From Acidobacteriota bacterium (GTDB taxonomy: Bacteria; Acidobacteriota; Terriglobia; Terriglobales; Acidobacteriaceae), in NCBI GenBank assembly GCA_013290025.1, contig JABCYV010000008.1, forward strand, positions 1-46,022: a stretch of 46,022 nucleotides of DNA, written 5' to 3'. Under the pieces are notes generated by a model. It was not told the origin of the DNA, ran no database searches, and saw nothing but the letters and a program-made list of their open reading frames with translations. The position numbers and the translations under genes were made by a program. This document shows positions 1,653 through 3,458 of this stretch, piece after piece. Every line of letters starts with the position of its first letter. The stretch's first letter is position 1.

Positions 1653-1780
1653 GGAACTATTTAACCACAGCAGGCTTTGCGATCTGAGAACTACGAGCTC
1701 TCCGAGGCTAAGAAACGGTTTGCTATCCTAGCGTATATCTTTTGACCGAAACCACGAACGGAACTTTACCGATCAGTCGC

Positions 1781-2209
1781 ATGAAGCGGGAGTATCCAGA
1801 ATCGCCGCTCGTCGGAGTGGGTGCAGTCATCATCGACGCCGGCCGAGTCCTGTTGGTCAAACGCGGACATGCCCCGTTGCTCGGCGAATGGTCGATTCCG
1901 GGAGGCTTACTCGAAGTAGGAGAAACGGTACGGCAGGCCGTGGTGCGTGAAGCGCAAGAGGAAACCAGCCTCACCGTCGAGACGGGCGAGTTGCTCGGTG
2001 TGTACGACCGCCTGCTGCCTGACGGCGACGGACGTACGCTCTACCATTATGTGTTGATCGATTTCCTTTGCCGTCGGCTGAGCGGAGAAACTCTGGCTTC
2101 GGGGGATGCCGACGATGTGCGCTGGTTCACGCGAGAGGAAGCAGAGAAGCTTCCGCTGCCAGAAGACACCGCACAGGTAATACGAATGGGGTTCGAAAAG
2201 GCAGGTTGA
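1781..2209 (+). CDS. NUDIX hydrolase
   Basis: GGLLEVGETVRQAVVREAQEETSL matches the Nudix box GX5EX7REUXEEXGU; ATG at 1781 inside the longer TTG-started ORF 1742..2209. Confidence 0.9.
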   Translation: MKREYPESPLVGVGAVIIDAGRVLLVKRGHAPLLGEWSIPGGLLEVGETVRQAVVREAQEETSLTVETGELLGVYDRLLPDGDGRTLYHYVLIDFLCRRLSGETLASGDADDVRWFTREEAEKLPLPEDTAQVIRMGFEKAG

Positions 2210-2311
2210 TATTCGTTGTCATCGCAGCGAACGGTCTCGCTTGGGAATCAGTTTGTGCAGTCGAAAGATCCGTGCGATTGCCTCTGCTGAAGCTCACGCG
2301 TGGCTTTAATC

Positions 2312-2355
2312 CAAAAATAGAACGGCCCGCAAGCCTATATCAAGCCTGCGGGCCG
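2312..2355 (-). terminator. Rho-independent terminator of the small transcript
   Basis: 12-bp stem with one mismatch (2323-2354) followed on minus strand by GTTCTATTTTT. Confidence 0.75.
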
Positions 2356-2497
2356 CCCGGTGGACTGTTTTGGATTGACCAAGAGGTGGTCACTCTACGT
2401 GGCCCCTTCGGCGAACTCCGGGTCCTGGTGCAACTTGCGCCAGGCGGATCAACCCTAAATCACCGGTAGTCGTGCGATGGTTCTTAGAGCGACCGCT

Positions 2498-2554
2498 CTA
2501 AGTCTCAGCCACCTCACCTGGTCTTGTACTCCCACTACATTCAGAACTTGTCAT
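2498..2554 (-). CDS. 18-aa small ORF MTSSECSGSTRPGEVAET
   Basis: ATG 4 nt after GGAAAGGAGGTGGTCG, nearly full complement of the 16S 3' end; TAG stop lies in an 8-bp hairpin. Confidence 0.45.
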   Translation of the reverse strand: MTSSECSGSTRPGEVAET

Positions 2555-2582
2555 TCGACCACCTCCTTTCCGGTGTAATTGC

Positions 2583-2612
2583 ACATTAGTACGAAATGCT
2601 GTGCGCCGTCAA
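2583..2612 (-). promoter_or_regulatory. Sigma70-like promoter for the small transcript
   Basis: TTGACG - 18 nt - TAATGT on minus strand. Confidence 0.5.
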
Positions 2613-2786: not shown

Positions 2787-3458
2787 TCAGCCCTTCCAGC
2801 GGTAGGCGTCGGGCTGGGGCAGGCCGAGGTGGGACAGGACGCGGTAAGCGAATTCGCGCGCCAAGGCATCCAAGCTACTCGGCCGAAAGTAGAACGCGGG
2901 AATGAGCGGGAAAACGGTGGCGCCGGCGTCGGCGGCCCGGTACATGTTGCGGATATGGATTTTATTGAGCGGCGTTTCGCGGACACACAGTACAAGCGGT
3001 CGTTTTTCCTTAAGGCAGACATCAGCAGCCCGCTCGATCAGTTGTGCGGCGATGCCGTTGGCGATGCGGGCGAGCGTGCCCATGCTGCAGGGTATGACCA
3101 CCATGGCATCAGTGGGATACGAGCCGCTGGCGATATTGGCTCCGATGTCGGCGTTGGCCTGGAGATGAATTTTGCGTGTGGATTTTCCCGAACTGCGGCC
3201 AAGGATTTGTCCGATGAGATTGCTGCGGCCGCGCAAACCGAGTTCTTCAGCCATGACGCGCAGCGCGCTGTCGGAGGCGATGAAGTTCACCGTCTGCACA
3301 CGCTGATCGCGATCAACCGCGAGCAAGAAGTGTTTAAGGAATAAAGCCCCGCTAGCGCCTGTTGTAGCGATGGTGAGGTTCTGCGGCGGGTGATTTGGCA
3401 AGTTGGGCTCCAGCGTGATTGACCGGAGTGTTGAGCATAGGGAGCCGGTAGCGAGCAA
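2787..3458 (-). CDS. ubiX: UbiX family flavin prenyltransferase
   Basis: NLTIATTGASGALFLKHFLLAVD ... VVIPCSMGTLARIANGIAAQLIERAADVCLKEKRPLVLCVRETPLNKIHIRNM; UbiX signatures. Start codon uncertain. Confidence 0.9.
   Translation of the reverse strand: MLATGSLCSTLRSITLEPNLPNHPPQNLTIATTGASGALFLKHFLLAVDRDQRVQTVNFIASDSALRVMAEELGLRGRSNLIGQILGRSSGKSTRKIHLQANADIGANIASGSYPTDAMVVIPCSMGTLARIANGIAAQLIERAADVCLKEKRPLVLCVRETPLNKIHIRNMYRAADAGATVFPLIPAFYFRPSSLDALAREFAYRVLSHLGLPQPDAYRWKG

Follow-up and report, generated by a model that had tools for sequence, protein, structure and literature searches.

The only Rfam relative of the element described here is RF02471 (Ms_IGR-5, annotated "Actinobacteria sRNA"). 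The parts of Ms_IGR-5, in the order shared by the element, are an extended Shine-Dalgarno (SD) sequence, GUGAGGUGGCUG, a stop reading GEVAAR*, (C)GAAUUCC, CAGUCACC, and a terminator. In Streptomyces avermitilis the homologue is a separate small RNA (sRNA) transcription unit with a mapped transcript end (PMC8780764), and in S. lividans it has been seen by RNA-seq (PMC8079986). In Mycobacterium abscessus and M. smegmatis it is ribosome-protected, although the same study cautions that footprints on non-coding RNAs are common and need not mean productive translation (PMC4974804). Together, these reports are consistent with an actinobacterial RNA that stands alone, is abundant, and associates with ribosomes. 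The literature searched contained no functional study of the branch, and no published account of the Ms_IGR-5 open reading frame (ORF), of a second SD-like site, or of a range beyond Actinobacteria.

A second Rfam family, CC2171 (RF01867), resembles the element in several parts: its SD is extended (GAAAGGAGGTGATCCAGTG), its ORF is short, its 3' strand is of the CCACCTCC type, and it has a terminator. In most of its members, an SD-like site of the GAGG type precedes the stop by 8 nt. It differs in having neither EVxxx-stop nor GAGGUG-N9, and its helices are not aligned with helix P2 (below). In S. aureus, the SD-aSD helix can extend beyond its core, and non-canonical starts are backed by extended SDs (PMC13009471), which resembles the TTG/CTG/ATT/ATC-like starts found behind the extreme SD in homologues of the element. 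However, the S. aureus sites belong to ordinary mRNAs and gain two additional Watson-Crick pairs only (PMC13009471), and they have neither an SD at the stop nor a fold-back helix. Translation-sensing leader peptides and attenuators likewise place a short ORF over mutually exclusive helices; unlike these, the unit described here has its own terminator and lacks a conserved downstream gene.

The transcription unit and its relation to Ms_IGR-5

The window, a stretch of 46,022 nt that forms positions 1 to 46,022 of an Acidobacteriota contig (JABCYV010000008.1, assembly GCA_013290025.1), holds a predicted unit of 265 bases with the following flanks and parts:

2787-3458, minus strand: ubiX, one flank of the unit
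1742-2209, plus strand: NUDIX gene, the other flank, convergent to the unit
2607..2612, minus strand: -35 box TTGACG, seen in the sequence; TTGA kept in aligned relatives
2583..2588, minus strand: -10 box TAATGT, 18 nt from the -35 box; weak consensus match, TANNNT in relatives
about 2577-2575, minus strand: predicted transcription start, placed from the promoter
2313..2577, minus strand: predicted transcript, its ends placed from promoter and terminator; a sub-threshold RF02471 match covers 2576-2317
2570..2576, minus strand: conserved 5' end ACACCGG, directly 5' of the SD
2557..2569, minus strand: extreme SD AAAGGAGGTGGTC, 13 nt complementary (one G.U) to the 16S tail GATCACCTCCTTT
2498..2554, minus strand: 18-codon ORF MTSSECSGSTRPGEVAET, ATG at 2554 and stop UAG/TAG at 2500-2498; ORF kept in homologues
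2510..2515, minus strand: SD-like GAGGTG inside the ORF; exactly 9 nt separate it from the stop
2372..2376, minus strand: conserved AATCC segment; the hairpins lie on its 5' side and the P2 3' strand on its 3' side
2313..2358, minus strand: intrinsic terminator, an 18-pair stem (2358-2320) followed by TATTTTT

The first-pass annotation had described a self-contained transcription unit made of a promoter, an extreme SD, an ORF, hairpins, the segment GACCACCTC and a terminator. All of these are present in the window sequence, which confirms the observation; a self-contained unit is supported, and the extreme SD is real: AAAGGAGGTGGTC has one match in the window and none in 100 shuffles. The TAATGT box, a poor consensus match when taken alone, was not picked by a strict promoter scan of the window; the position of the promoter and the TTGA of its -35 box are conserved across genera in aligned relatives, and a σ70-like promoter is common to all homologues. 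Also common to all is SD pairing of ~13 nt with the 16S tail (the relatives' 16S 3' end reads CTGGATCACCTCCTTT). The ACAC of the 5' end is nearly invariant among 72 diverse homologues, and the AATCC segment occurs as (G/C)AAUCC in most homologues, across phyla. Past the stop hairpin and a middle part that is structured, the 3' region of the window unit runs GACCACCTC..GGTCAATCC..CAGTCCACC and then into the strong terminator. Folding of the unit lies 4.2 sd below that of its own shuffles.

The RF02471 match spans the whole unit (E 8.1e-5 when 701 bp are searched and 1.4e-4 when the genome is searched as a whole), and its score is 29.5 bits against a gathering threshold of 45 bits. Since the gathering score is not reached, the element is a divergent relative, that is, a member of the Ms_IGR-5 superfamily as judged from sequence, rather than a formal RF02471 member. 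Two traits of Ms_IGR-5 are present: the extended SD is followed by GUGAGGUGGCUG and an in-frame UAG, and 2513-2506 pairs with 2367-2359 just before the terminator, as in the CAG-CACC/GGUGxCUG pairing of that family. The gap in score is bridged by intermediates. A Zixibacteria locus (L136) scores 55.9 bits against RF02471, which passes the threshold, and also matches the broad covariance model described below; actinobacterial loci found by pattern score 95-175 bits. In contrast to Ms_IGR-5, the window element has an extra domain between the stop hairpin and the 3' strand, a longer ORF, a stop hairpin, and a competing helix, P2'. Membership in Acido-1 or Acido-Lenti-1, which the first-pass annotation had considered, found no backing: neither these nor other acidobacterial Rfam motifs match at E<=5, and the CC2171 model likewise gives no window match at E<=5. 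That annotation had also taken a hit to a known Rfam family as a sign that the unit is not new. By this measure the unit is partly known, because the RF02471 match is significant yet below the gathering score; the known family is itself an uncharacterised, phylum-restricted fragment. Only the actinobacterial branch is catalogued so far, and in its present form the Rfam model fails to detect homologues beyond Actinobacteria.

In genus g35, which is rich in species, and in close genera (L028-L053, L074-L085), a single-base insertion relative to the 16S tail (GGAGGaTGATCC, or T/G variants) is fixed in the SD across the clade. A changed 16S tail matching the inserted base was considered and rejected; the 16S of the clade is the usual CTGGATCACCTCCTTT, and the extra base is thus a bulge.

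Distribution of homologues

A blastn search matched 17 of 36 genomes sampled from the same family (the element's own genome aside) and none of 24 more distant ones. A covariance model of the 5' part of the unit (R1) finds one copy in each of 42 listed genomes of family f1, two further f1 genomes being listed without it, and reaches 62 of 396 Acidobacteriota genomes overall, including several other families of the phylum. Nearly all sampled genomes of the window's family hold a homologue of the unit, one copy each.

Beyond the phylum, a single pattern scan (SD-N15-45-YGAGGTGNCNG) covered 85,000 species. Among the pattern matches listed are loci from Actinobacteria, Acidobacteria, Zixibacteria, Sumerlaeota, Nitrospinae, Nitrospirae, Spirochaetia, and Deltaproteobacteria. 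Six matches (L090, L101, L110, L124, L162, and L164), which lie inside long ORFs or lack a short ORF, were dropped as chance. A broad covariance model that includes the window element (R2), applied to genomes whose group names come from record titles (and whose MAG records may be mis-binned), matches, with one copy per genome, 94 of 249 Actinomycetota genomes (two matches in one of them), 30 of 80 Zixibacteria, 6 of 150 Spirochaetota, and 3 of 149 genomes of a deltaproteobacterial phylum, and matches none of 120 Bacteroidota. The Zixibacteria and Actinomycetota genomes are too many for all of them to be contamination. Matches in Pseudomonadota (9 of 299) are weak and mostly belong to CC2171, another Rfam family. 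A single-copy RNA gene that is present in several phyla, mycobacteria and Streptomyces included, and that has no known function is rare.

In alphaproteobacterial loci of CC2171 and related Rhodobacterales (L205-L209, L211-L213), GAAAGGAGGTGRTCCAGTG is accompanied by an ORF of 18-21 codons and a CCACCTCC-type 3' strand; most have a GAGG-type site 8 nt before the stop. CC2171 looks like a remote version of the element, and Ms_IGR-5 and CC2171 may form one superfamily; this is a lead, and the likeness could be convergent.

The SD-like site at the stop codon

The ORFs of homologues are 11-25 codons long and end in EV-xxx-stop, while their bodies vary in length and sequence. Family alignments show very little variation in the SD, in GAGGTGGCTG..TAG, in the stop hairpin, or in the 3' strand. 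The second GAGGTGG within the ORF, which had been noted at first pass, is indeed there and proves to be the most conserved element of the whole unit. GAGGUG-N9-stop is found in 146 of 146 elements, although the filter also permitted 6 or 12 nt. Because the pattern scan that yielded L086-L165 required GAGGTG, its invariance in those loci is built in, and only sets found by covariance models test it. In these sets, GAGGUG-N9-stop is kept, as read by eye, in divergent actinobacterial loci scoring at least 23.7 bits, and is fitted uncleanly by the three weakest actinobacterial matches; in two further phyla, all 10 of 10 loci have it.

Of the 146 elements, 122 stop at UAG, including those of high-GC actinobacteria, which usually prefer UGA. 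This bias is partly explained by the stop-codon stem. In several actinomycetotal loci (L270, L271, L273, L278, and others) the frame appears to start with ATT or ATC, and in others with CTG; such rare starts behind an extreme SD recall IF3-sensitive starts. A +1 frameshift at the stop was considered and set aside; the 6-nt SD spacing differs from the 3 nt of the prfB frameshift site.

Mutually exclusive folds over the end of the ORF

Bases near the ORF stop take part in these helices:

2506..2513, minus strand: P2 5' strand GGTGGCTG, within ORF codons; covariation
2359..2367, minus strand: P2 3' strand CAGTCCACC, C2363 bulged; compensated variants in homologues
2483..2502, minus strand: stop-codon hairpin P3, CTTAGAGC-GGTC-GCTCTAAG; covariation in the home family
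2510..2523, minus strand: P2' 5' side (GACC..GAGGTG), RNAalifold columns 77-90 paired with 340-351; exclusive with P2
2377..2388, minus strand: P2' 3' side (CACCTC..GGTC), overlapping the segment GACCACCTC at 2391-2383

P2 is a long-range helix in which GGUGxCUG pairs with CAG-(N)-CACC just 5' of the terminator. When the sites of the 3' strand are chosen without using pairing, 89% of cells pair, compared with 26-39% when the strands are slid; none of 3000 shuffles reaches the observed value (z 4.5, a statistic that ignores the relatedness of the sequences). One P2 pair swaps among G-U, A-U, G-C, C-G, and U-A between lineages, and divergent members form 9-10 perfect pairs, for example GGUGGUGUCC with GGACACCACC and GGUGACGAGG with CCUCGUCGCC. 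In P3, across 77 homologues, five of the eight pairs have double changes (40 cells versus 8.3 in shuffles, in an alignment fitted to the structure), and the hairpin is retained where UAG is replaced by UAA or UGA. P2' is limited to the home family, the window's own clade, where it competes with P2 for the same ORF bases; its support is a compensatory change from A-U to G-C at one pair in up to 4 sequences. A further helix, P1 (the SD extension with the ORF), reaches z 2.2 in actinobacteria, gives no signal in Acidobacteriota or elsewhere, and is not claimed. A tRNA-like acceptor/T-arm reading of the 3' strand was rejected, since by eye the arms do not pair in tRNA fashion.

Homologues in related genomes and covariation, the checks proposed at first pass, are thus both found, the latter for P2 and P3. 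The suggestion of alternative folds that hide or expose the SD holds in part: covariation supports the folds, but what the fold-back conceals is not the first SD; it is GAGGUG with the codons that follow, at the ORF's 3' end. Similarly, GACCACCTC is a true 9-nt complement of the first SD, but the match is not kept by selection; in one relative (L012) the SD has become GAGGTGATC while the 3' element stays GACCGCCTC.

A proposed translation-gated RNA and alternative readings

With both its ORF and, by covariation, its structure conserved, the unit has the properties of a dual-function small RNA. The reading favored here, tentatively and with slightly less than even confidence, is that this member of the Ms_IGR-5 superfamily stands alone as a small RNA of dual nature and is gated by translation. 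Because of the 13-nt complementarity to the 16S tail, 30S subunits are predicted to bind the first SD very avidly and would then translate the ORF. As P2 and P3 both contain bases from the ORF end, translation would have to melt them. With the stop codon in the A site, GAGGUG would lie 6 nt upstream of the P-site codon, approximately the normal place of an SD. At this distance, a terminating or post-termination ribosome could be re-anchored, and would keep P2 and P3 open. When ribosomes are scarce, or when they recycle, the 3' strand (AAUCC..CAG..CACC) would snap back onto the ORF end. The balance between the ribosome-held, open state and the folded, closed state might then report ribosome supply or recycling. 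The two states might control a protein that binds the AAUCC loop, base pairing between other mRNAs and the freed CACC strand, decay of RNA, or the ribosome pool itself. The exact 9-nt spacing could instead be set by the geometry of the P2-loop-P3 fold and not by the ribosome.

A broader form of this proposal is more doubtful, although possible: that the elements constitute a class of ribosome-anchoring RNAs spanning several phyla, with Ms_IGR-5 and, probably, CC2171 as two fragments already catalogued. Such RNAs would have an SD at the start and a P-site-placed SD at the stop, and the presence of ribosomes on an ORF nearly devoid of content would switch the overlapping fold, giving a dedicated sensor of ribosome supply or recycling. 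As one conserved unit, the ORF, the SD-like site at its stop, and the covarying helix over its end make a testable ribosome-linked RNA, and M. smegmatis or Streptomyces could be used to test the family's role. If the second SD does hold terminating ribosomes, this would be a new way to read out translation.

An unlikely alternative is a ribosome decoy or anti-16S RNA, in which the two SDs would mainly titrate or park 30S/70S particles while the ORF and folds would only tune occupancy and stability. The ~13-nt complementarity to 16S, the second SD at the stop, the ribosome protection in mycobacteria (PMC4974804), and neighbor genes that are not conserved would all suit such a role. However, a decoy would need neither P2/P3 covariation nor a maintained frame nor a conserved AAUCC, and a single-copy gene would require very high expression to shift the ribosome pool.

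A little less probable again is a micropeptide gene, whose active product would be a peptide of 11-25 residues ending in EV(A/T/P/S)xx, with the 3' structure stabilizing the message. Homologues do keep the frame, the start region, and EVxxx-stop, and a strong SD, a stop hairpin, and a terminator are typical of stable short mRNAs. Substitution patterns point the other way. The ORF body varies in length and sequence, with a pN/pS of 0.78 in one acidobacterial clade and of 0.71 in actinobacteria (a set in which GAG GTG was required by the scan). Among 21 distinct ORFs of the acidobacterial clade, the last five codons have a pN of 0.0 and a pS of 0.07, and GAG GTG shows zero synonymous changes. 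Different lineages have A, T, P, or S directly after EV, and the paired 3' base changes along with this residue, so that RNA pairing explains the C-terminus. Peptide-motif searches returned unrelated words only. Given the invariant GAG GUG codons and the weakly constrained body, the peptide seems less important than the RNA itself and its being translated. The compensated exchange after EV, together with the constancy of GAG GTG and the pN/pS of the body, suggests that selection acts mainly on the RNA and on the presence of a frame, and less on the peptide. Thus, as to whether the peptide or only the structure is conserved, a question raised at first pass, the structure, GAGGUG, and the presence of an ORF are mostly what is kept, and the peptide body only weakly (pN/pS).

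Less likely still is a trans-acting sRNA with the anti-SD-like 3' CAG-CACC strand as its seed, which P2 would hide until translation frees it. Once unpaired, CACC could base-pair with GGUG close to the starts of targets, the unit has its own promoter and terminator, and the closest Rfam family is annotated as an sRNA; between lineages, though, the 3' strand changes together with the ORF strand, unlike a conserved seed.

Genomic neighborhood and upstream sequence

The genes next to the unit vary, being NUDIX and ubiX in the window, thiG in one clade, and a nitrobindin-like gene in actinobacteria, and none is conserved. A leader or attenuator controlling a downstream gene through terminator readthrough is highly improbable: the short ORF, alternative helices, and terminator resemble attenuators, and in one acidobacterial clade thiG follows the unit on the same strand, but the next gene is convergent both in the window (NUDIX, 1742-2209, plus strand) and in actinobacteria (nitrobindin-like), neighbors differ between lineages, no co-oriented downstream gene is conserved, and the transcript end is mapped in Streptomyces (PMC8780764). 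Cis attenuation of a neighbor was rejected, as gene order differs between clades and phyla.

In genus g35 (L028, L031, L035, L039, L040, and other family-f1 loci) the unit is immediately upstream of thiG. In actinobacteria it lies between the pabC/ygfZ neighborhood and the convergent nitrobindin-like gene. Just upstream of the -35 box, a block, CACTTTCGTGCCAG, is conserved in several genera (L002, L003, L004, and L007); its counterpart in the window, at 2612-2630, reads CACCTTTTGCCGG. Its conservation suggests an upstream regulator or a UP-type element.
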